Positions 16,900 to 40,353 of a stretch of 64,000 nt of DNA are shown one piece after another. The position numbers and the translations under genes were made by a program. How positions within the stretch are numbered: position 1 is the stretch's first letter; every line of letters starts with the position of its first letter. Below the pieces are notes generated by a model, which was given only the letters and a program-made list of their open reading frames with translations, ran no database searches and was not told the origin of the DNA. Source of the stretch: an uncultured Bacteroidota bacterium (GTDB lineage Bacteria; Bacteroidota; Bacteroidia; Flavobacteriales; Flavobacteriaceae). The stretch lies in assembly GCA_902616905.1 (NCBI GenBank), contig CACMUP010000001.1:168722-232721 (forward strand). Reading direction: 5' to 3'.

Positions 16900-17080
16900 A
16901 TAATCATTTTTCGTCAACCTTGGCATAATTTACTGAGCCCCAAGTTGCAACAATTTAAATATCTGATTTGTATTTATATCATCCAATACTAAACTATTGA
17001 TAGTTTTATCAATAATTTTTTGCATACAAACTTTTATTTCAGATGTTAATTTGTTTGCAGTCACATTTTATTCTCCTCAT
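16900..17080 (-). pseudogene. decayed copy of the MGRKAGVPNK small protein family
   Basis: Minus strand reads NKLTSEIKVCMQKIIDKTINSLVLDDINTNQIFKLLQLGAQ*IMPRLTK, aligns with NKVTTEVKEKLEELIDGIVNSIDIEELNTNQKIKMLQISLQYTLPRMQA; 1-nt frameshift near start and internal TAA. Confidence 0.65.
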
Positions 17081-27105: not shown

Positions 27106-27124
27106 AGTGCAAGAATTAATTTTG

Positions 27125-27165
27125 TAGAGAAGATGGTACTCGAACCCACGACCTTTTGACTGCCA
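27125..27165 (-). repeat. 3'-half duplicate of tRNA-Ala (putative attL)
   Basis: tagagaagatggtactcgaacccacgaccttttgactgcca vs tRNA tggagaagatgggactcgaacccacgacctcttgactgcca, 38/41 identical. Confidence 0.8.
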
Positions 27166-27311
27166 ACCAAAATTAAGCCATGTTTTAAAGAACCCTAAAA
27201 CATAAATTTATGCTTCTTTATTATGCTTTCCAGCGTTTTACTGAAATACAACTTTAAACAAAAGTTAGTCAATTTCTTGGCACTTATTTGGCACTACTCT
27301 ATATATAGAGG

Positions 27312-27512
27312 TCAATCTTCTTTTTCTTTGCTTATAACTGATGCTTGCATTCTTGGCAAAGTATACTGCAATGATATTTGAAGCATCTTAATTTTTTGGT
27401 TTGTAGTGAGTTCTTCAATGTCTATTGAATTTACAATTCCATCAATCAACTCTTCAAGTTTTTCTTTTACTTGTGTTGTTACTTTGTTTGGTACTCCTGC
27501 TTTTCTTCCCAT
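27312..27512 (-). CDS. small MGRKAGVPNK-family protein (unknown function)
   Basis: Near-identical to ORF 38006-38224 in inverted orientation. Confidence 0.7.
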   Translation of the reverse strand: MGRKAGVPNKVTTQVKEKLEELIDGIVNSIDIEELTTNQKIKMLQISLQYTLPRMQASVISKEKED

Positions 27513-27533
27513 ACTTTTTTTATTTTAGTTGTT

Positions 27534-27719
27534 ATGAAAATTTCAAGGTTTTATCTTTCTATTTTTGTTCTTGTTTCTTGGGCATCTTCTTGTCTGTATT
27601 CAGCTTTTAAATTTGGTATTCTGTCTGATGATTCCGTATATACTTTTCTTTGGGGTTTGCCTCTTGCAGTTATACTTATTATCTACCTTTATAGAAACCC
27701 AATACCTAAAAAAAAATAA
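27534..27719 (+). CDS. small two-TM hypothetical protein
   Basis: MKISRFYLSIFVLVSWASSCLYSAFKFGILSDDSVYTFLWGLPLAVILIIYLYRNPIPKKK. Confidence 0.5.
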   Translation: MKISRFYLSIFVLVSWASSCLYSAFKFGILSDDSVYTFLWGLPLAVILIIYLYRNPIPKKK

Positions 27720-28050
27720 ATTCTTGCACTTTATTTTTTAAACTCAAGAAAAGGCAGATGAGATACTTGAAAAGATGGGAATAACACCTAAAGAATTTAA
27801 TGCTAAATGGGTGGATTGTTAGAGGTTTATGTGATCTAAAATATCAATTTTTCAAACTTTTTTGTCCAAGACAAGAGCCAATATATAATTTCACTATTAC
27901 TGTAGAACGACTCCCAACCCCAGTAACCAAAAGCTAACCGAGGTTTAAAAGTATTAAATAACTTTTTTCTGTTATTGGAAATATTATGAAATTTGATATG
28001 TATCACATTCTCCATATCTTTAAAGTATTACAACTTATAAACCAACTAAG

Positions 28051-28338
28051 ATGAAAAAATTTTTAATTAGAAGAGAAATGAAAGGAGCTTCTTCTATTCC
28101 AAAACATGAAATGAATAAGGGTGGAAAAGCTTCGGAGGAAGTACTCGAGGAAATGCGAAATGAAGGGAAAATGATTCAGCAAGAAACAAGTTATGTTGCG
28201 GGTGACAATGTTTATTGTGTTTATAATGCTGAAAACGAAAGTTTAATAAAAGAACATGCGGAGAGATCGGGAGGAGTAGCAACTGAAATCACTGAAATTT
28301 CAACAGTAATTAAACATAATACGTCAGTTGTAAGTTAA
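28051..28338 (+). CDS. DUF4242 domain-containing protein
   Basis: MKKFLIRREMKGASSIPKHEM ... SYVAGDNVYCVYNAENESLIKEHAERSG. Confidence 0.8.
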   Translation: MKKFLIRREMKGASSIPKHEMNKGGKASEEVLEEMRNEGKMIQQETSYVAGDNVYCVYNAENESLIKEHAERSGGVATEITEISTVIKHNTSVVS

Positions 28339-28348
28339 TATCATAAAA

Positions 28349-28378
28349 TGTCCACCTCCAAATTTGAGGTTTTTTTTC
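28349..28378 (+). terminator. intrinsic terminator
   Basis: acctccaaatttgaggtttttttt after the DUF4242 ORF. Confidence 0.65.
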
Positions 28379-28480
28379 TCCAATTGAAAAAATTGTTTTT
28401 GACCTCTTTAATGAAGAAAAACTTAAACAAAAATAGTTTTTCCATAATTGTTTGTGTTCTATGTTATTTTAAAATACAAA

Positions 28481-29347
28481 TTAGTCATTTATGAAAGTCA
28501 AAATCTCTTTTAAAACTTTTTCGTCCCTTAAAATTCTTCTATGACCTAAATTTTTTGTGAAAAATGTTTTTACGTTTTTTATACTTTTTGCAATAAGCTG
28601 AGAATCTTCTAAGGGTATTTCTTTGTCATTCTTATCATGGATAATTAATGTTTGACATTTTAGATTTTCCCCAAACTTTTCAGCTGAAAGATTCTTATCG
28701 ATTTTAATACCAGTTTTTTTGCTGTAAAATTCAATCATCAAATCACCAACCTCCTTACTTACTTGAATTAAATTGAAAAAACTTTGGAAAAGATCATAAA
28801 CGCTATTAAATGGACTAATAAGTACCAATTTTTTAAGTTTTTTATTATTGAAACATGATGAGTACATTGATGCAAATGCACCACCTGAGTAAGCAATTAT
28901 GGCATCGAGAGATTTGATATATAAATGTAACTCATTTATGCAAGCTATGAATTCTGGAATATTTGATGTTTTTGATGGTGAATTTCCATGAGCTGGAGCA
29001 TCAAACGAATATATATCGTATTCTTTTTCAATTAATCCTTTGATTATATAATACATATTACTTGCTCTCCCGCTCCAACCATGAACTAATAAAACTTTTG
29101 GACCTTTTCCAATCCATCTGTAAAATTGAATTTTTTTATTAATACTTTTTATTGATAAAATTGAAGTTTTACATGATTTAAGAATTGGGATTTCTCTTTC
29201 TGGAATCTTGTATTTGATAGGTCTTGTCCAAAGGTAACCAGCAAAACGCATACATAAATATGGATTCAAAAAATCCAAAATTTTTACAAAATAAATTATC
29301 CATTTAGGAATTATTAGACCTCTGCTGTCCTTCCTTTGTTTGTCCAT
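28481..29347 (-). CDS. alpha/beta hydrolase
   Basis: VLLVHGWSGRASNMYYIIKGL; AYSGGAFASMYSS; LIIHDKNDKEIPLEDS. Confidence 0.82.
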   Translation of the reverse strand: MDKQRKDSRGLIIPKWIIYFVKILDFLNPYLCMRFAGYLWTRPIKYKIPEREIPILKSCKTSILSIKSINKKIQFYRWIGKGPKVLLVHGWSGRASNMYYIIKGLIEKEYDIYSFDAPAHGNSPSKTSNIPEFIACINELHLYIKSLDAIIAYSGGAFASMYSSCFNNKKLKKLVLISPFNSVYDLFQSFFNLIQVSKEVGDLMIEFYSKKTGIKIDKNLSAEKFGENLKCQTLIIHDKNDKEIPLEDSQLIAKSIKNVKTFFTKNLGHRRILRDEKVLKEILTFIND

Positions 29348-29402
29348 ATGACCAAAAAATTAATCTAATTTTTTAATAATTTTTAAGTGTTTATATAATT
29401 AA

Positions 29403-29888
29403 AATTACAACTAAAATAATACAATAATTTACTGAAAACTATCAACTTGTAAATACATTGTATAGTATGTTTAATGGTAAAAATTGTATCACAGAATTTT
29501 CATTAATAATAAACATCTACTAACAATACCTTAATAATTATAATGCTAATAAGTAGTATATAAAGTGCTTTAAAAGAAAAGAAAGAAAAAAGAGTAAAAA
29601 AGAAAGAAAAGAAAAAGTCCCCCCATGAAAAAAAATATTCTTTATTTATCTGAACCAAGTACTTAACTAATATGACACAAGTTTAGACAGTTTTTTAGGT
29701 GGTTTTGCATCCTTCCACTATATGTACAATAAAAGTTGGTGGAAAGTGTTAATGATTTATACCTTAAAGTAATTGATAAACCTTAGGTAAGTATCGTTAT
29801 TATTGGGATTATAATATTTCCAACAAAATATAAACATTAGGTACTAATTTGTATATTGGTAATTATTAACTATAAATCAATAAAAATG
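29403..29888 (+). repeat. left arm of ~480-bp inverted repeat (intergenic region)
   Basis: Near-identical by eye to reverse complement of 34678-35162, e.g. tttagacagttttttaggtggttttgcatccttccac, acaataaaagttggtggaaagtgttaatgattt. Confidence 0.9.
29572..29615 (+). repeat. perfect polypurine mirror repeat (20+4+20 nt)
   Basis: AAAAGAAAAGAAAGAAAAAA-GAGT-AAAAAAGAAAGAAAAGAAAA. Confidence 0.95.
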
Positions 29889-30659
29889 AGAAAAATTTTA
29901 ACTTTAATATCTATACTTATTTTTTCCAATTTAAATTCACAAATCGCTTCTATGGAAGCATATGTAATCCAAGATGGTAAAGATAGTGATTATAGAAAAA
30001 TTGAGAGTTTTGTTGCCCCTCTTAAAGCTATGGCAATTAAAGAAGGTAAACTTTTAAGATGGGTTGTAATGAAAAGAAAATCAGGAGGTGACCTTAGCTC
30101 TATCGATAATACGAAAGAAATAGCGAATTATCTTGTTTTCAATGTTTATAAAGATCAATCACAAATGGATTCTGACGATTGGAATAATTATAGAGGATAT
30201 GCTTCTAAAGTATATAAGGGTAAGATGTCAAAAAGTTCTATTAGCAAAATGTTTAATATGGCTGGAGGAAATCAAGTAAAAAAATCCGTGAGACAATATT
30301 TGATGAAAGGCATCTATCAAACCCCATCATATAGGCCACAGATAGGTGATGTTATAAATATAGACCCTATGGAAGCATTAAATGAAGATTATGAAAATTT
30401 TGAATTAGAATATTTTATGCCAAGATGGGAAAAAGTTGTAGATGAAGGTGGTTTAAGAATGTGGGGATTAACAAAAGTAATATCTTCAAATGACAACGCA
30501 TACAAAAACCTAACTCACTTTGTTTTTAAAAATCCAACAGGGACACCAATTAAATTTGGAACAAATTCATTCATAGATTCTAAATTGCAGGAAATGGGAA
30601 CCAAATCAAGAAAAATGTTTAATGGAGCAACTATGGAAATAATCCATATTGAGAATTAA
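29886..30659 (+). CDS. secreted hypothetical protein
   Basis: Signal peptide MRKILTLISILIFSNLNSQ; start trimmed to shared leader actataaatcaataaaaATG. Confidence 0.65.
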   Translation: MRKILTLISILIFSNLNSQIASMEAYVIQDGKDSDYRKIESFVAPLKAMAIKEGKLLRWVVMKRKSGGDLSSIDNTKEIANYLVFNVYKDQSQMDSDDWNNYRGYASKVYKGKMSKSSISKMFNMAGGNQVKKSVRQYLMKGIYQTPSYRPQIGDVINIDPMEALNEDYENFELEYFMPRWEKVVDEGGLRMWGLTKVISSNDNAYKNLTHFVFKNPTGTPIKFGTNSFIDSKLQEMGTKSRKMFNGATMEIIHIEN

Positions 30660-30768
30660 GTTAAACAAGTTTAAATTAAAAGTTAACCCTCCCGAATGGA
30701 CGGTTTTTTTTATATTATCGGTATATCCTTTTAATTAAGTCCAGGTATTATTTGCTTACTGAAAGTAG

Positions 30769-30981
30769 TTAACAGCAACCACAACTTTTTTGGGCAACGT
30801 AGTCTTTAGCCTTTTTAATTTTGCAAGAATACATTGGGTATTTAGAAAGAAAGATTTCACCTAATATAATGTTTGAAATATTATTATCGGCACCGAATTT
30901 GTTCCTTATGGTTGCTCCAAATTCATCAACGCTGTACATCTTATTTTTTAATCCCAATGGATTTTCTCCGCTTTCTTTCAT
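30769..30981 (-). CDS. small hypothetical protein with C-terminal CGCC
   Basis: MKESGENPLGLKNKMYSVDEFGATIRNKFGADNNISNIILGEIFLSKYPMYSCKIKKAKDYVAQKSCGCC; 44 nt downstream of the Cys-rich mini-ORF on the same strand. Confidence 0.5.
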   Translation of the reverse strand: MKESGENPLGLKNKMYSVDEFGATIRNKFGADNNISNIILGEIFLSKYPMYSCKIKKAKDYVAQKSCGCC

Positions 30982-31025
30982 AATGATATCATTCTACAAG
31001 ATATAGATACTAAAAATAACAAATA

Positions 31026-31115
31026 TTAACAATCACAAGGAGAACAATAGCAAGGATCACAAATACAAGCCGAACAATCTAATTCTTTACAAGGGGAACA
31101 ATTACAACTACACAT
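31026..31115 (-). CDS. Cys-rich mini-protein, metallothionein-like (29 aa, 11 Cys)
   Basis: Minus-strand ATG...TAA: MCSCNCSPCKELDCSACICDPCYCSPCDC*; below ORF-track size cutoff. Confidence 0.6.
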   Translation of the reverse strand: MCSCNCSPCKELDCSACICDPCYCSPCDC

Positions 31116-31245
31116 AATCGATTTTTTTATAAAATTACAAAAAAATCCATTAATAGTTTGTGGAAATATAAATCTAATGTAGTTTAAGTTTTTTAGTAGT
31201 TTCGGATTAAATCATCGGCATATCCTCATCATTAAGTTGAAAATT

Positions 31246-31599
31246 TTACAATAGTAATCCCTCTTTGTAAAGTGCACCAAGAATACCAATTAAAATACCA
31301 ACAATAATAGCAGTTCCAACTACTATATTTGATTTTTTCCTATCAGAATGTAATTTTACAGCTATCCTATTTAAAAAGTCTAATTGTTTTGGATATACTG
31401 ATTTATCTTCTAAAGAGCGAAATATCTTCAGAGCTTTTACAATTGTAATTAAGCCAGAAACCTCAAAAACAATAACCCCAATTAACAAGTAAATTTGAAA
31501 TGGGGTGTTTTCTTCAGTAATATAAAGAAGAATAATTCCAGAAAATATTAGTAAATATGATAAACCTATTAACCTCCAAAAATCTCTTTTTGTTTTCAT
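31246..31599 (-). CDS. small four-TM membrane protein, unknown
   Basis: Four hydrophobic segments (e.g. LSYLLIFSGIILLYI, IVVGTAIIVGILIGILGALY); shared leader atataccgatg.../ataaatcaatgtt. Confidence 0.55.
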   Translation of the reverse strand: MKTKRDFWRLIGLSYLLIFSGIILLYITEENTPFQIYLLIGVIVFEVSGLITIVKALKIFRSLEDKSVYPKQLDFLNRIAVKLHSDRKKSNIVVGTAIIVGILIGILGALYKEGLLL

Positions 31600-31681
31600 A
31601 ACATTGATTTATGGTTTAGGTTAAATATACAAATTAGTCACAGAACAAAATGAAGAGTATATACCGATGATATAAAAAGAA

Positions 31682-31704
31682 AAACCCTCCACTTTGGGAG
31701 AGTT
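31682..31704 (-). terminator. intrinsic terminator of cassette gene
   Basis: minus: ctctcccaaagtggagggtttttc. Confidence 0.65.
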
Positions 31705-31711
31705 AATATTA

Positions 31712-32182
31712 TTATTGAGCTGCAAGCTCCATATTAAGTGCAGTTGTGTCAAAATAACAACCCATCTCAACAATTTTCCCGTTCTTCCATCTATAATCAA
31801 AGTGAGACCTATTTGAATACCTAATTCCTGTTTTATTTCCTGTTCCTTCCCAAGTAAACCATTTGTTAGTCCAGATGTTACCATTTTTAAAATAATTTGT
31901 GTGAGCATATCCATCAAGTATCTCTATATCATTAAATATGGTATGATGAGATTTAAATATTTCTTTTACTGTTTTTCCGTCCATAACAGTATTATTTATT
32001 CTAACAATGGCATTATCTGATAAAGTTTTATCCCACAATGTATGTTTATTTGAAGCGTAATCAGCGTCAAGTTCTTGTGCAATTAAACTCAAATCGTCAA
32101 CCTGTGATATTAGTCCTGCAGATTTCTGGCAAAATGTTAAAGCTGGAGTAACTAATAGAAGTAATAAAAGTGTTTTTTTCAT
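31712..32182 (-). CDS. secreted SnoaL/NTF2-like protein
   Basis: Signal peptide; TVMDGKTVKEIFKSHHTIFNDIEILDGYAHTNYFKNGNIWTNKWFTWEGTG. Confidence 0.7.
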   Translation of the reverse strand: MKKTLLLLLLVTPALTFCQKSAGLISQVDDLSLIAQELDADYASNKHTLWDKTLSDNAIVRINNTVMDGKTVKEIFKSHHTIFNDIEILDGYAHTNYFKNGNIWTNKWFTWEGTGNKTGIRYSNRSHFDYRWKNGKIVEMGCYFDTTALNMELAAQ

Positions 32183-32242
32183 TTTAATTGATTTATGGTT
32201 AATAATGTCTTAAACATATTGAGAATATGTTGAAAAGAAAAA

Positions 32243-32259
32243 CCCTCCGCTTGGGAGGG
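32243..32259 (-). terminator. intrinsic terminator of cassette gene
   Basis: minus: accctcccaagcggagggtttttctttt. Confidence 0.75.
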
Positions 32260-32269
32260 TAATTATGTT

Positions 32270-32764
32270 TTATTTTGGGACAGGTTTTCCATTTGCTTGA
32301 TACCAATATATAATTTTTCCCTCATGAATTTGATACCATTCCATTGTAATTGATCCGTCTTTACCTCTAAATTGAGCATTAATCCATTCCCCTAATTGAT
32401 TTCTTACAGATGAGTCTTTGGCCCCGACAGCCTTTACACTAAATGCTGAAATTGTTTCCCAACCCCAACCATAAGTTTTTTCAATCTCTTTGTACTGCTT
32501 CTTAATTTTCTTAATAAAACCCTTTGGTCCTTTGACTTGTGTTCCATCATCGAATCTCATATAAGCATCTTCGGCTATATAAGATTTTAAGGTTTCATAA
32601 TCCCTTTCAGCCCATGCTTTGTCAATACTTTTAAAAATATCAACTGTTACTTCTGAACCCAAAGCAATTGTTTGTCCTTCTGCTGGACCAAAGCCGTTTG
32701 TTTGTTGAGAATAGCTTGAAAACCCAATTGATAGCAGTATAATTGTATATAAAGTTTTTTTCAT
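32270..32764 (-). CDS. secreted SnoaL/NTF2-like protein
   Basis: DIFKSIDKAWAERDYETLKSYIAEDAYMRFDDGTQVKGPKGFIKKIKKQ. Confidence 0.75.
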   Translation of the reverse strand: MKKTLYTIILLSIGFSSYSQQTNGFGPAEGQTIALGSEVTVDIFKSIDKAWAERDYETLKSYIAEDAYMRFDDGTQVKGPKGFIKKIKKQYKEIEKTYGWGWETISAFSVKAVGAKDSSVRNQLGEWINAQFRGKDGSITMEWYQIHEGKIIYWYQANGKPVPK

Positions 32765-32840
32765 TTTAATTGATTTATGATTAGTAACATTAAATATAGA
32801 AATTAGTACCTGAACTTAATGAAGAGGATATGCCGATGAT

Positions 32841-33326
32841 TTAATCTACTCTCGTGTAGTATTCAGCAAAACCGTTACCTAACGAGTCAAGTGCGGAAGG
32901 ATGAAAAGGTGAAATTATTAACTTAGACAAATGGTTTTTTCCATAATCAACTTCAAATTCCATTTCGATGTAATCTTTGTCAGGACCACTCCATTTAACT
33001 AGCCCTTCACCAAGCCAACCTGTCCCATAATACACTTTCTTTTTGAGTTTGTTATCATTTAGCGTGTAAGTTCCAGCTTCTGCAACTCCTTTATCGGTGT
33101 CCTCTCCAGTGATAGAATCAATTTTAATTTCGTTCATTAGAAGCGAAAATGAACCTTTTGTATACACTTCAAAAAATATCCCTTTAAATTCTACTGTATC
33201 TATCGGTTCACCTCCCTTATAATTTATAGTTCCCTTCCTTATCCAAGCACCTTCTAATAACGACTTTTGGTTTTGTTTACAAGAAAATAATAGACCTACA
33301 GATAAGAATAAAATGAAACTTTTCAT
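32841..33326 (-). CDS. lipoprotein, possibly lipocalin-like
   Basis: Lipobox LLFSC; LLEGAWIRKGTINYKGGEPIDT. Confidence 0.55.
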   Translation of the reverse strand: MKSFILFLSVGLLFSCKQNQKSLLEGAWIRKGTINYKGGEPIDTVEFKGIFFEVYTKGSFSLLMNEIKIDSITGEDTDKGVAEAGTYTLNDNKLKKKVYYGTGWLGEGLVKWSGPDKDYIEMEFEVDYGKNHLSKLIISPFHPSALDSLGNGFAEYYTRVD

Positions 33327-33423
33327 TTTTATTGTTTTATGGTTTAGAATAAATATACAAATTAGTCACTAAACAAAATTAAGAGGATATGCCAATGATA
33401 TAACCAAATATTAAATAGTTATA

Positions 33424-34152
33424 TTGCTTAAAAGTATAGATATGTTTAAAAGGAAGTTTTTCTTAAAACTTGGTCTTGAGATTATAGCTATCATTATTGG
33501 TATATCTGCTTCATTCGGGATTAGTAAAATATCAAATGAAAGAGACAAAGAAATCCAAAGAGAAAGAGTTTTAAATAGTATCCTAATAGAGTCAAATGAT
33601 ATCAAAAATTATTGTGATGATAGAATGAAAATATGGAATCAAGATATTGAGATTTACAATATTCTTTTAAAGGATGAACTAAATATTGAAAAACTAAAAA
33701 AAATAGCTATAAGCAAAAATAGAGTTGAGTATAATTTGCTCTATTATCGAGATTTTGACCCTCCAATGAATAGATATAGATCCGCTCTTAACACTGGTGA
33801 TTTAAAATATATTAATTCTGAAAATATCAAAGAATCTATTACTCGTTTACATAATTTAAATTATGGAAAAGTTGTATCAACGGTTGATTATGAAAAAAAA
33901 ATAATAGATCTTATAATTGAGTTGATAACAAAAGAAAAGCCTAGTCTTATCCTAAATGGTAATGACCTTAAAATAAACTTCGACAATTATTTAAAGTTTT
34001 TACATAAGTTAATCCAAGAAAATGAAAAGCTTAAGTCTAATCTTACTGTTCAGCTTAAGTATTTTAAAACAAGGATTTCTTCGTTAAAGATTTATATGAT
34101 AACTTTAGAAGAACTTCAATATGAACTAGAAAGAATTTTGAAATCTAATTGA
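33424..34152 (+). CDS. DUF6090-like membrane-anchored protein
   Basis: KFFLKLGLEIIAIIIGISASFGISKISNERDKEIQRERVLNSILIE. Confidence 0.55.
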   Translation: MLKSIDMFKRKFFLKLGLEIIAIIIGISASFGISKISNERDKEIQRERVLNSILIESNDIKNYCDDRMKIWNQDIEIYNILLKDELNIEKLKKIAISKNRVEYNLLYYRDFDPPMNRYRSALNTGDLKYINSENIKESITRLHNLNYGKVVSTVDYEKKIIDLIIELITKEKPSLILNGNDLKINFDNYLKFLHKLIQENEKLKSNLTVQLKYFKTRISSLKIYMITLEELQYELERILKSN

Positions 34153-34678
34153 CAGGTTGGTATTCATCCACAGTAATGTCACCTTCTGCATTTAATAGCT
34201 GATCAAGCATTGATTTCATATCAAAAAAGTCGTGTTCTTTTGCAATTCTTCCATCACGCATAGTAACAATTGTTGTCCCTGATAAATTCAGCTTGTTACC
34301 AGTAGCAGGTATACCAAAGAAATTTCCTGTATGCTTTCCTTTAAAATTCCAGTGTTTTGTTAGTTTATTTCCTTGTCCAAAGGCATCAATAATTGTCCAT
34401 TCAATGTCTGAAAAACCAGTCAAATAATTGGAGTAATACTCTAAACACGCTTCAATACCAACTAGATCACCATCTGAAGTAACTATAATAATATCTTCAG
34501 TAAAGTTTTTGTCATTTACCACACTCGTGTCTCCAGCTAAAAATGTATTCCATACGTTTTGGTACATCTCAAGATCTGTTTCTAGTTGTATTGCAGAATC
34601 TGATTCTTTTTTTTCTTTCAATTGGTTATTACAGCCTGAAGTATAAATTAAAAATACATATAGAAGTACCCTTTTCAT
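34145..34678 (-). CDS. SnoaL/NTF2-like lipoprotein
   Basis: NVWNTFLAGDTSVVNDKNFTEDIIIVTSDGDLVGIEACLEYYSNYLTGFSDIEWTIID. Confidence 0.7.
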   Translation of the reverse strand: MKRVLLYVFLIYTSGCNNQLKEKKESDSAIQLETDLEMYQNVWNTFLAGDTSVVNDKNFTEDIIIVTSDGDLVGIEACLEYYSNYLTGFSDIEWTIIDAFGQGNKLTKHWNFKGKHTGNFFGIPATGNKLNLSGTTIVTMRDGRIAKEHDFFDMKSMLDQLLNAEGDITVDEYQPVN

Positions 34679-35162
34679 TCTTATTGATTTATAGTTGATG
34701 TTTAAATATACAAATTAGTCCCTAATGTTTATATTTTGGTTGGAAACTTTATAATTTTAATAATTACAATACTTCCCAAAGGTTTGGCAACTACTTTAAG
34801 ATTCAAATCATTAACACTTTCCACCAACTTTTATTGTACATATGGTGGAAGGATGCAAAACCACCTAAAAAACTGTCTAAACTTGTATCATATTTGTTAG
34901 GTACTTGGTTCAGGTAAAATAAGAATGTTTGTTTTTCATGGGGGGGGCTTTTTCTTTTCTTTCTTTTTTACTCTTTTTTCTTTCTTTTCTTTTAAAGCTG
35001 TTTATATACTATTTATAAGCATTATGATTATTATAGTATTGTTAGTAGATGTTTATTATTACTGAAAATTCTGTAATGCAAATTTTACCATTAAACAACC
35101 TATACAATGTATTTACAAGTTGTTAGTTTTCAGTAATTTTTGTTTCTTTTAAGTTGTATTTT
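34678..35162 (-). repeat. right arm of ~480-bp inverted repeat (intergenic region)
   Basis: Reverse-complement copy of 29403-29888. Confidence 0.9.
34950..34993 (-). repeat. perfect polypyrimidine mirror repeat (20+4+20 nt), complement of the left-arm copy
   Basis: TTTTCTTTTCTTTCTTTTTT-ACTC-TTTTTTCTTTCTTTTCTTTT. Confidence 0.95.
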
Positions 35163-35187
35163 TAAGTAAAATAAAACACAAACAATT

Positions 35188-36153
35188 ATGAAAAAACTAT
35201 TTTTGTTTTTTACACTTGCATATCCTTCGTTTTTTGTTGCACAGGAAACTCAAATAATAAAATATCCCTGTAGTTCAATAGCTGACAATCACAAAATAAA
35301 TAAGGGTTTAAGTAAATGGCCAAAATTTAAAAAAGGTCAAACCTTAAAAATTAACAGTTTTATAAATTACCAATATCCTACAGAGGACAGTAAATTAAAT
35401 TCAGAATGGTTTAAACAAAGAAGACCCTGGTGGACTAAAATTGAAAATGATCCATGGAGTGAGTACCCTTTTTTTGGTGAAAAATTTATACCTCCAAAAT
35501 TAGATTTTAAAAAAAATGTTGATGACAATTTAAGGTGGAAATGTGGCTATTCGTATATGATTGACATACCTGTAAATTTTAAAAAAAATAAAACCTATCC
35601 TTTAGTAATATTTTTGCACGGAGGAATTGATACAGATCAAAAAAAGTTTTTGTGGCGTGAGAGACAAAGAAAATCATTTTACATGTCAGAAGACGATCCA
35701 TATGTAATTGCAGCCCCGATAAAGCTTGGTTGGGATTGGGATCCTAAAAAGGTAATTGATATAATTGAGGATATTAAAAAAAATCTAAAAATTGATCCAA
35801 ATAGAATTTATTTGACTGGTTTAAGTATGGGGGGTAGGGGAACTTTTATTGTTGCATCTCAATATCCCAAAGTATTTGCATCAATATTGGCTCTTTCACC
35901 ACACCATACCCCATACAGTTATATTGAATTAATAGATAAAGTTAAAGACATCCCCATTCTCATAAGTCATGGAGATTCTGACACAGTTTCATCATTTCTT
36001 ATTGCAGAAAAAATGTACGAAGGGCTAAAAGATGTTGGCGCTCAAGTTACTTTTAAACCTCGGTTAGGGGTTGGTCACTGGGGTTGGGAGTCATTCTACA
36101 GTAATAGTGAAAATATAAATTGGCTCTTGTCTTGGACAAAAAAGTTTAAATAA
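35188..36153 (+). CDS. prolyl oligopeptidase/esterase-type alpha/beta hydrolase
   Basis: YPLVIFLHGGIDTDQK; RIYLTGLSMGGRGTFIVASQYPKVF. Confidence 0.85.
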   Translation: MKKLFLFFTLAYPSFFVAQETQIIKYPCSSIADNHKINKGLSKWPKFKKGQTLKINSFINYQYPTEDSKLNSEWFKQRRPWWTKIENDPWSEYPFFGEKFIPPKLDFKKNVDDNLRWKCGYSYMIDIPVNFKKNKTYPLVIFLHGGIDTDQKKFLWRERQRKSFYMSEDDPYVIAAPIKLGWDWDPKKVIDIIEDIKKNLKIDPNRIYLTGLSMGGRGTFIVASQYPKVFASILALSPHHTPYSYIELIDKVKDIPILISHGDSDTVSSFLIAEKMYEGLKDVGAQVTFKPRLGVGHWGWESFYSNSENINWLLSWTKKFK

Positions 36154-36585
36154 TTGGAATTACATCAGAAAGGTTTAGCAGGAGAGTATTATGTTTTAGC
36201 ACAACTAACTGCAAGGGGTTATAATGCATCTCTTACACTCGGCAATACCAAAGGTGTAGATATACTTGTATATAATGAGCAAACTAAAAAGGGGTATAAG
36301 TTAGAGGTAAAAACTACAACCAATAAACTAACAAAATTCAAACGTTTTGAAGAATGGCATACTGATAAGGTATTTTATTGGATCATGTCCTCTAAACATG
36401 AAAACATTATTGAAGATGACTTGGTGTATTGTTTTGTTCATATAGAAGATGTGGGTTCACTTCCTAAATTCTTTCTTGTAAAAAGTAAGGATGTAGCAAA
36501 GTATGTGAGAGAGCAACATGTGTTTTACCAAAAAATACCAAGAGAAAAACCTGTTAAAGATGGATCAATCGACAATTTAGAATAG
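36154..36585 (+). CDS. PD-(D/E)XK nuclease-like protein
   Basis: HQKGLAGEYYVLAQLTARGYNAS...GVDILVYNEQTKKGYKLEVKTTT; TTG start directly after TAA of the previous ORF. Confidence 0.75.
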   Translation: MELHQKGLAGEYYVLAQLTARGYNASLTLGNTKGVDILVYNEQTKKGYKLEVKTTTNKLTKFKRFEEWHTDKVFYWIMSSKHENIIEDDLVYCFVHIEDVGSLPKFFLVKSKDVAKYVREQHVFYQKIPREKPVKDGSIDNLE

Positions 36586-36724
36586 ATGTAAATGATCCAA
36601 ATGGGTATGAAAATAATTGGGGCATATTAGATAATTAAACAACCAAAACAGTCAAAGGTTAGAATAACATTAACTACAGAAATGACAGTTAAAGATTTAA
36701 TCTAATCAAAAGTGTAACTGATAT

Positions 36725-37459
36725 TTAATTTATTATTAAACTTAGTGATTTAACAAGTTCTTGGTTTTTTATCTTTATTTCGTTCAAAAGTTTTTTAAAT
36801 GAATTAGTTTTGAGCTTACGTTCAAAGAGTAATTGTTGAAACGCCACTTTTACTAATTGCTCTTCAAGAATTATAGGATTCAGTGGCACTTTTAAATTTT
36901 TATTTGAGGAATCTTGATTATAAAGTGATCTAAGGTTATGCATTCCAACATTGCTTAAATAAGGTCTGATTTTATTATGAACAATGTCAACGTATTCTAT
37001 AAATATATCAGTTACCTGATCTTCCTTTAAGAAATAGTCTTGGATTAGCTCCCTAATAAAATCATCTTCAAGTGTACTTATAGATTCAGAATGATTTCTC
37101 TGAGAAATCGGACGAAAGTCTGAAGAAAATCTAATAAGGCCAATTGAATCATAGTTTATTTTTTTCTTCTCATCAAATATTTTTGAAATCAAATCATCTA
37201 TGAGATTCATTTGATTAGATACTTGCTCTAAAGATTTATTAATGTGAATAAAATCTAATCTTAGATCTTCAATTATGTTTTTAACTAATAGTGCTTGTTC
37301 TAAATCATTCTTTCTGCTTTCATTCCAATTATTAATGCTTAGAGCAATTAGAATTCCAATAACAACCAACACTATTTCTCCAACAGCATATTTAAGATAA
37401 TCTCCTATTTTATTATCCCTGAGCAAATCTTGACGAATTTTTCTAAAGAATTTTATCAT
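36725..37459 (-). CDS. DUF6090 family protein
   Basis: DYLKYAVGEIVLVVIGILIALSINNWNESRKN. Confidence 0.75.
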   Translation of the reverse strand: MIKFFRKIRQDLLRDNKIGDYLKYAVGEIVLVVIGILIALSINNWNESRKNDLEQALLVKNIIEDLRLDFIHINKSLEQVSNQMNLIDDLISKIFDEKKKINYDSIGLIRFSSDFRPISQRNHSESISTLEDDFIRELIQDYFLKEDQVTDIFIEYVDIVHNKIRPYLSNVGMHNLRSLYNQDSSNKNLKVPLNPIILEEQLVKVAFQQLLFERKLKTNSFKKLLNEIKIKNQELVKSLSLIIN

Positions 37460-37517
37460 TATCTATCCGAAGAACATCTAAAATAAATAAAAATTCCGTA
37501 CTTAGATATGGTCAGAT

Positions 37518-37727
37518 ATGTATATGGGATGGGTAAAAAGACATCTTAAAGATGAGAACGTAAAAGGAATAATAATTGCAGGGAGGTATGACAAGAAACT
37601 TGACTACGCATTAGAATATGCTCCTAATGATGCAGAGGTTTTTATCTATAATGTGTCTTTTACTCTTAATGAGTTTAAAATTAAAGTAGCAAGTTTTATT
37701 TTATTGTTTTTTCAATTTTTATTTTGA
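37518..37727 (+). pseudogene. C-terminal fragment of DUF91/NucS-like endonuclease
   Basis: YMGWVKRHLKDENVKGIIIAGRYDKKLDYALEYAPNDAEVFIYNVSFTLNEF; no N-terminal part upstream. Confidence 0.6.
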
Positions 37728-37947
37728 CTTGTCTACTCTGAGAACCCTTCTTAGTTTTAGGATTTTTTTTTCTTTCTATGTGATATCTTTCGTAATAGTT
37801 TTTATAATCCATTCTTAATTTATCTTCGGTTTGTATTTCTTTAAACTGTCCTATTATAAAAAAGAGTGTTATTAAAAATCCTATTAAAAATATAGCTGTA
37901 CTCATAAATTTATTTCTTTTTAAGAAGTAAATAACCACCACCACCAA
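37696..37947 (-). CDS. small hypothetical membrane protein
   Basis: MSTAIFLIGFLITLFFIIGQFKEIQTEDKLRMDYKNYYERYHIERKKNPKTKKGSQS. Confidence 0.4.
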   Translation of the reverse strand: MVVVVIYFLKRNKFMSTAIFLIGFLITLFFIIGQFKEIQTEDKLRMDYKNYYERYHIERKKNPKTKKGSQSRQVKIKIEKTIK

Positions 37948-38005
37948 GACAACAAATTAAAGCTATTAATAAACCTATATCCATAACAACTAAAATATAA
38001 AAATG

Positions 38006-38224
38006 ATGGGAAGAAAAGCAGGAGTACCAAATAAAGTTACCACAGAGGTAAAAGAAAAACTTGAAGAGTTAATTGATGGAATTGTAAATTCAATAGACAT
38101 TGAAGAACTCAATACAAACCAAAAAATTAAGATGCTTCAAATATCATTGCAATATACTTTACCAAGAATGCAAGCATCAGTTGTAAGTAATGAAACTCAA
38201 GATTTACCTTTATTTATAGATTAG
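38006..38224 (+). CDS. small MGRKAGVPNK-family protein (unknown function)
   Basis: Inverted near-identical copy of 27312-27512. Confidence 0.7.
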   Translation: MGRKAGVPNKVTTEVKEKLEELIDGIVNSIDIEELNTNQKIKMLQISLQYTLPRMQASVVSNETQDLPLFID

Positions 38225-38340
38225 TGCCAAATAAGTGCCAAGAAAATGACTAACTTTAAGTTAAACTTAATTGTAAAGAAAAGGTTTCCACTTATATCAT
38301 AGAGCTCATTTATAAAGGGATAAGTGGATAATTTAATTTG

Positions 38341-38414
38341 TGGAGAAGATGGGACTCGAACCCACGACCTCTTGACTGCCAGTCAAGCGCTCTAGCCAGC
38401 TGAGCTACATCCCC
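38341..38414 (-). tRNA. tRNA-Ala(GGC)
   Basis: GGGGATGTAGCTCAGCTGGCTAGAGCGCTTGACTGGCAGTCAAGAGGTCGTGGGTTCGAGTCCCATCTTCTCCA. Confidence 0.95.
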
Positions 38415-38906
38415 AAATTATAACTAATTGATTTTAAAAAATTTATAATAATCAATTTTTTTTACAGCAAATTACGACCTTTACAAATCTATAAAAATTA
38501 GCCTATTTAGTTGAGTTTTGACTGTTAATTTACAGTAAACTAATGGGGGTATGGTTTTTATATTTCGTTTCTCCACGGAGGCTAAGAAGTTTCAATGTAT
38601 ATAAACCCAATGAGAAATGACAGTTAAAAGGGTATTTATATTTTTAATAATGTTGGTACAATTAATAATCTTGTTATTGCCATTTAATTAAGGGATTAGA
38701 TTAATATTATTTGAGGAGATTCCTAGTTAAAGAAAAATTAGTCTTAAACTTTAGAGATTTTAAAATTTTAAAACAAATTTTTAATGTCTATTACAAACTA
38801 ATTATAATATTTTTGAAAAAAAAATGTTGATTTTAACTTATTTTGAAATTAAATTTGAACTTATCAAAAGATCTTTAATTCAATAAATTACCATTATAGA
38901 TATTTA

Positions 38907-39638
38907 GTGAAGAAAACGGCATCCAAACCTACTGTTCAGATATATAAAAATTACACCAGAGAAGACTATAAGGTCTGGAAAATTTTGTTTAATAAGAGGC
39001 TAGAAAATCTAAAAGGAATAGTTGCAGAAGAATTTTTGGTTGCACTAAAGGATCTTAACTTTAAAGCAGAAAAAATCCCCAATTTTGTTGAAGTTAACAA
39101 CATACTAAAAAATAGAACTGGATGGAGAATTAAAACAGTTCCAAATATTAGTCCACCAGAAGAGTTTTTTTCTTTTCTGTCTATGAAAAAATTCGCAGCT
39201 ACATGTTGGCTCCGATCAATAGACCAAATCGATTATTTGGAAGAACCGGACATGTTTCATGATGTTTTTGCACACGTACCTCTTTTGAGCAATAAAGATT
39301 ATACTGATTTTTTTAAAGAAATGGGAGAGATTGCAATGTCGGTAATTGAAGACCCAAAAAAATTGGAAAAACTACAGAGAATTTATTGGTTTACAATTGA
39401 ATTTGGTTTGATTAAAAAAAACAATGACTTCAAGGTATATGGCGCAGGCATTATTTCATCAGATGAGGAATCCAAGAATGCACTTTCAAATAAATCAAAA
39501 AAATGTGAATTTGATGTAAAAAAAGTTATGAATCATTCTTTCAGGATTGATATTGTTCAGGACACTTATTATTACATAAATTCATTCGAACAATTAACCT
39601 CTTCCATAGCTGAGATTAGGGATGATTTTCAAATCTGA
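38907..39638 (+). CDS. phhA: phenylalanine 4-monooxygenase (aromatic amino acid hydroxylase)
   Basis: YLEEPDMFHDVFAHVPLL iron-ligand motif. Confidence 0.9.
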   Translation: MKKTASKPTVQIYKNYTREDYKVWKILFNKRLENLKGIVAEEFLVALKDLNFKAEKIPNFVEVNNILKNRTGWRIKTVPNISPPEEFFSFLSMKKFAATCWLRSIDQIDYLEEPDMFHDVFAHVPLLSNKDYTDFFKEMGEIAMSVIEDPKKLEKLQRIYWFTIEFGLIKKNNDFKVYGAGIISSDEESKNALSNKSKKCEFDVKKVMNHSFRIDIVQDTYYYINSFEQLTSSIAEIRDDFQI

Positions 39639-39916
39639 GTTCTATTTTTAGTCTATTTTAATTCCTTTCTACAACATAGGTCAATAAACTTTAATGATTT
39701 GTTAAAACGGGAAAGATTTTTTTGCATTTTTAATTTAATTGCCTGGTTGATTATAACAATTAGTTGTTTTTAATGGCATTGTAGGAAGTTCCAGAATAAC
39801 TTTTTAAAAGAGTTTGTAAACGATCATTTGTTAATTGATTGTCCTGTTTTACAATTTATATTTATTTTTTGGCAAAAAATTTTAAAGTGGATTTATAGGA
39901 ATCCGATAGCTATGAT

Positions 39917-40193
39917 TTTGGTTTAATCTTTAAGGCATTTTGAATAAACCACCTTGCATTACTTTGTTTTACGAAAAAAGAAGGATCTATTAGTTTATTG
40001 CCATTGTAGATATATTTATAAATTTCTGCTGCAAGGATTTTAGCTTTTGCTTTTCTTTGAAAAAAGGGAAAACTATTTGATTTAAATCAATACCAATTTT
40101 ATCTCCAATGTAGTGTCTAAATCTTTTATGGTTTAGATAAAGAGTAATAAAGTAATTTCCTTTATAATCAAGGCAAACTTTTGAATAGTTCAT
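39917..40193 (-). pseudogene. N-terminal fragment of a tyrosine recombinase/integrase, frameshifted
   Basis: GNYFITLYLNHKRFRHYIGDKIG...VFPFFKEKQK then other frame KAKAKILAAEIYKYIYNGNKLIDPSFF. Confidence 0.6.
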
Positions 40194-40250
40194 CTGATAG
40201 TTAATTTACAGTAGACAATTATGTCTAGTTGTAAATCACTGTAATTATTA

Positions 40251-40313
40251 GGACTCGAACCTACGACCTCTTGACTGCCTGTCAAGCACTCTAGACAGCT
40301 TAGCTACATCCCC
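40251..40313 (-). pseudogene. tRNA-Ala remnant lacking the 3' acceptor strand
   Basis: ggactcgaacctacgacctcttgactgcctgtcaagcactctagacagcttagctacatcccc; U33 lost. Confidence 0.8.
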
Positions 40314-40353
40314 AAATTATAATTAACTCTTTATTTAGATAGATTTATTAAAC

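Follow-up and report, generated by a model that had tools for sequence, protein, structure and literature searches.

A 64-kb stretch of flavobacterial DNA, here called the window, contains two copies of a long purine tract with perfect mirror symmetry. The locus raises the question of whether this tract is kept by selection, and for what use, or has been copied along with its surroundings as a passenger. The left tract consists of AAAAGAAAAGAAAGAAAAAA GAGT AAAAAAGAAAGAAAAGAAAA, a 44-nt perfect mirror repeat with a 20+4+20 layout, in which the first 20 nt are the last 20 nt reversed (symmetry at 20/20 positions). Purines occupy 43 of the 44 positions, and the sole non-purine is the T of the GAGT spacer. 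The right tract is the exact reverse complement of the left, with its purines on the minus strand. The 48-nt core sequence is TAAAAAACTGTCTAAACTTGTATCATATTTGTTAGGTACTTGGTTCAG.

29572-29615, plus strand: left mirror tract (exact match and mirror test)
34950-34993, minus strand: right mirror tract, letter-identical to the left copy

The initial annotation had described a perfect 20+20 polypurine mirror repeat with an identical second element, and both descriptions are exact to the base. Its remark that the flanking sequences differ also holds. The arms in which the two tracts lie are 79-90% complementary in ungapped blocks, and the G-run that touches the tract is longer on the right (8 nt) than on the left (6 nt).

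No other mirror repeat in the window is as long; the runner-up, a (TTA)n run, has 15-nt arms. In 20 simulated sequences of 64 kb with third-order composition, the best mirror arm reached 9-13 nt, and pure purine arms reached 10 nt at best. The tract is not explained by composition alone. When its A-runs were shuffled, 20-nt symmetry was obtained in 121/20000 trials, and when its letters were shuffled, in 2/20000; symmetry this long is uncommon even for an A/G tract of the same make-up. Within the genus, a survey of 39 genomes found purine tracts this long only in the window's genome and in the single-cell genome AG-891-I06, taken to be G030. Across the family, 49 of 400 genomes have a purine tract of such length, and many among those listed are simple tandem repeats. 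These counts bear out the earlier description of the structure as unusual. Purine mirrors that combine such length with perfect symmetry and no periodicity are rare in Flavobacteriaceae, and this one is preserved without a single change in two species. In most prokaryotic phyla, mirror repeats and long purine runs occur at approximately the expected frequency (PMC4060949).

The tract forms one end of a dispersed, non-coding element of ~210 bp. This element sits between an inward-facing gene, which usually encodes a secreted protein, and an outward arm with an end module, the last gene of which encodes a 73-aa protein. All four copies share one arrangement, in which the secreted gene is followed by the element, by the cargo if there is any, by the end-module gene and lastly by an attachment repeat or tRNA.

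34794-35003, plus strand: right copy of the ~210-bp element (extent from homology to the G030 C1 copy described below)
29560-29771 (G000:C1:198281-198492), minus strand: left copy of the ~210-bp element, 93% identical to the right copy
34145-34678, minus strand: gene for a SnoaL-like, probably secreted protein, diverging from the right element (Pfam)
29856-30659, plus strand: gene for a putative secreted protein, diverging from the left element (ORF; no Pfam match)
35188-36153, plus strand: esterase-like alpha/beta hydrolase, cargo of the right arm (Pfam and comparison; absent here in G030)
28481-29347, minus strand: alpha/beta hydrolase, cargo of the left arm, without a right-arm counterpart (Pfam and comparison)

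Two other identities for the element were considered and rejected. A structured non-coding RNA was discarded because folding against shuffled sequences gave no structure signal in the element on either strand (z between -0.5 and +0.9), and because Rfam, searched over the window, returned only two tRNAs and no family at the element. A plasmid or phage element was discarded because PLSDB and INPHARED contain no match to the element minus its tract.

A separate motif, ATCATCGGYATATCC, is repeated between the two arms at 30714, 31211, 31657, 32826 and 33385, where it lies in a shared region of 75-100 bp upstream of small secreted-protein genes. Exact copies are present in 26 of the 39 genus genomes and are often clustered (G028 C1 has six within 6 kb and G031 C2 five within 5 kb); the reversed control gave none. 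The motif looks like an operator or a cassette boundary.

Both tract copies sit in an inverted duplicate of about 480-486 bp that is 88% identical, and outward of this duplicate more matching blocks connect the left and right arms. The region 27121-38342, 11.2 kb long, is read as a genomic island that is linked to a tRNA and has two arms in inverted orientation; duplication of these arms explains the origin of the two tract copies.

27121-27165, plus strand: 45-nt repeat of the tRNA-Ala 3' end, left island boundary (93%)
38340-38414, minus strand: intact tRNA-Ala(GGC), the 3' end of which is the right island boundary
38003-38224, plus strand: intact 73-aa gene of the MGRxxGxPNKVT... family, with the tRNA about 115 bp away
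27297-27512, minus strand: left 73-aa gene copy, interrupted by a premature TGA

The direct repeat at the far border is thus present, as 27121-27165 and 38337-38381 match at 93% over 45 nt in the same orientation. Of the proteins tested from the island, several lack a Pfam match; the remainder are hydrolases, SnoaL-like, DUF6090 and SCO4226-like proteins. No integrase was found in the island: Phage_integrase (PF00589) matches are located on contigs 3, 5 and 15 of the genome, and none is on contig 1, to which the window belongs. An empty site for the tRNA-Ala island was sought through the neighboring amidohydrolase, the nearest relatives of which (84%) do not lie beside tRNA-Ala. The island architecture may matter more than the tract for the exchange of small secreted-protein genes within the genus.

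Traces of further rearrangement are visible at this locus. Esterase remnants at 28425-28483 (start) and 27840-27953 (end) match 35188-36153 at about 90%, with the middle gone; together they are a decayed copy of this cargo in the left arm. A degenerate, near-complete third tRNA-Ala copy (40251-40322, 93% over 72 nt) delimits a second segment, 38415-40250, which carries a biopterin-dependent hydroxylase gene and is possibly a tandem second island.

The end-module gene belongs to a family with the signature MGRxxGxPNKVTxEVKxKLExLIDG... and no Pfam match. The family is found in 24 of the 39 genus genomes, where it is frequently multicopy and frequently broken. A tRNA gene lies inside the ~3-kb locus at 14 of 25 73-aa loci, versus 2 of 31 controls, and the 73-aa gene can be taken from its gene context as a marker of tRNA-linked islands; perhaps it is also part of island mobility. 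Among these 25 loci, no tract lies within about 1.5 kb of the 73-aa gene except in G030 C1. Therefore, the mirror element is an addition in few islands. A degenerate third copy of the gene is located near 16912-17061. In another genome of the genus, a phage-type integrase gene (G031:C1:126528-126983) and a broken 73-aa gene are separated by about 0.7 kb; this integrase is a candidate for the enzyme that moves such islands.

Four copies of the tract are known, all letter-identical, in two species: two in the window's genome and two in AG-891-I06. A search for the exact 46-mer in GTDB r220 species genomes, from which records of the window's own genome may be omitted, found only two contigs, both from AG-891-I06. 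The G030 C10 copy is the counterpart of the right arm, with 95% identity over 472 bp, and resides beside the same tRNA-Ala. It has no esterase gene between the element and the next ORF; cargo therefore differs at the same site. The G030 C1 copy is in a different place, probably in a separate island, beside a repeat of the mnmE 3' end. Its common ground with the right arm is only the ~210 bp of the element and the 73-aa gene, and its homology to the element ends about 10 bp past the tract.

The repeat adjoining the 73-aa gene of G030 C1 is TTCTGTATTGGTAAATGA (L055:1908-1925, 18 nt). It is identical, bar one difference, to the end of mnmE in G031, where mnmE runs directly into the next gene. No integrase was found at the mnmE-repeat end of G030 C1, which is also where that contig stops. 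SGI1 uses the 3' end of trmE/mnmE as its attachment site. Because of this fact and the mnmE 3'-end repeat, we infer that the G030 C1 module belongs to a second island of AG-891-I06, at mnmE.

Searches of the 37 remaining genus genomes did not detect the element, which is therefore not a general island part. When a profile of the non-tract core was run against all 39 genomes, only the four copies were recovered, and other scores were near background; no more distant relatives emerged from these genomes. Family-wide BLAST matches fall almost wholly on the low-complexity tract.

Comparison of the four copies bears on whether the tract is constrained. In their alignment, variable columns number 0/44 in the tract versus 22/103 in the adjoining core (Fisher p = 2.5e-4, or p = 8.4e-4 without gapped columns), a test that rests on few independent changes because there are only four copies and two of these are near-orthologues with 3/103 core differences. 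Between the left and right copies of the window, 15/103 core columns differ and the tract is perfect, though the left arm is decaying, with a broken 73-aa gene. The tract is apparently more constrained than its surroundings, and these changes, few as the independent ones are, suggest that selection acts on it. The initial annotation had proposed "constraint or recent duplication," and both halves are upheld by the variable-column counts and by the duplicate nature of the arms.

A common recent origin is, however, a serious rival to selection. The tract could be an A/G-biased low-complexity stretch with a single origin that was copied with the arms and remains identical by recent descent or gene conversion, in which case its symmetry has no function. 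The arms are indeed duplicates, low-complexity purine tracts recur in the 49 of 400 family genomes mentioned above, and Tandem Repeats Finder also detects in the tract an imperfect repeat with a 9- or 17-bp unit. However, up to 18/103 columns differ within about 100 bp of a tract that is unchanged. Similarly, the adjoining G-run varies (5, 6, 6 and 8 nt across the four copies), which makes slippage possible at the tract edge, yet the A-runs are constant. We consider this passenger origin possible but rather unlikely.

The variable G-run also bears on whether the pyrimidine strand carries a coding frame for a short hydrophobic membrane peptide, rich in Phe, Leu and Ser and possibly switched by the G-run. 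ATG codons located 8-23 nt upstream open short frames through the tract, and the C10 and C1 copies yield the same 22-aa product, MFVFHGGLFLFFLFYSFFFLFF. However, the frame into the tract varies between copies because the G-run is 5, 6, 6 or 8 nt long, and the left copy has ATA in place of the upstream ATG. Moreover, an invariant tract offers no synonymous changes that would favor coding. Such a peptide seems very unlikely, and coding on either strand was rejected because the frame through the tract differs between copies.

We lean instead, with some reserve, toward the explanation that the tract is the invariant edge of an island-arm element under purifying selection and acts in cis between divergent units. 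The element would travel in the arms of tRNA- and mnmE-linked islands in one genus of marine Flavobacteriaceae. It would be copied with these arms, as in the inverted duplicate here and in the two separate islands of AG-891-I06. Two divergent transcription units flank the tract, and purifying selection would then preserve it as a site that acts in cis between them. Most likely the A-rich purine/pyrimidine tract would act through its stiffness and ease of melting, or through its U/C-rich transcript, and so part the inward promoter of the secreted gene from the outward cargo. Alternatively, the spacer might work by means of a bound protein. Selection over chance is something that we infer, as is any cis action of the tract. 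The tract has a defined setting, in arms copied within and between genomes, which makes the question of selection answerable with metagenomes and a plasmid assay.

A more specific proposal is that negative supercoiling folds the tract into a pyrimidine-type intramolecular triplex (H-DNA), which might absorb supercoils between the divergent promoters or serve the exchange of island arms. Formation of H-DNA is possible on primary-sequence grounds, given the perfect 20+4+20 homopurine mirror. Most triads would be T.A:T, and such triads need no acid pH. The symmetry is above the run-shuffle expectation, and the tract is located where homology runs out in the G030 C1 copy. However, in no copy is the symmetry kept by paired changes. 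The four copies are letter-identical, and sequence conservation alone explains the kept symmetry. We therefore regard a triplex with either role as improbable. The fuller claim, that the tract is a selected H-DNA switch or recombination site of integrase-poor flavobacterial islands that insulates promoters or promotes arm exchange, appears more doubtful still.

Compared with known systems, the tract resembles H-DNA-capable homopurine mirror repeats at the level of sequence only, in that it has a homopurine strand, perfect mirror arms of >15 nt and a short spacer (PMC4666352). Its homopurine strand and mirror arms fit the primary requirement for H-DNA described in that work. Unlike such repeats, the tract belongs to a longer intergenic element that is conserved and resides in genomic islands. 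Bacterial intrastrand triplex motifs of the BoxC/PIT type, which have been linked to genome rearrangement (Holder et al. 2015, PMC4666352), are also triplex-capable repeats, as the tract would be by its sequence. However, an intrastrand triplex motif (ITxF) needs purine and pyrimidine blocks on one strand that folds back twice, whereas the tract strand is all purine except one T.

The islands themselves also have known counterparts. As in SGI1-type integration at the 3' end of trmE/mnmE, a copy of the final 18 bp of mnmE, differing at one position, adjoins the G030 C1 module. Unlike SGI1, this module shows only the attachment-like repeat and the end module, with no integrase at that end, where the contig stops. 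The tRNA-Ala island resembles fGI-2 of Methylopumilus (PMC10872708) and the tycheposons in having variable cargo by a tRNA and repeats of the tRNA 3' end. A tyrosine recombinase within the element, which is expected of a tycheposon, was not found in the island, and the window's contig differs from both systems in having no Phage_integrase match. The island here is further set apart from fGI-2 and the tycheposons by its inverted arms, its 73-aa end gene and its mirror element.
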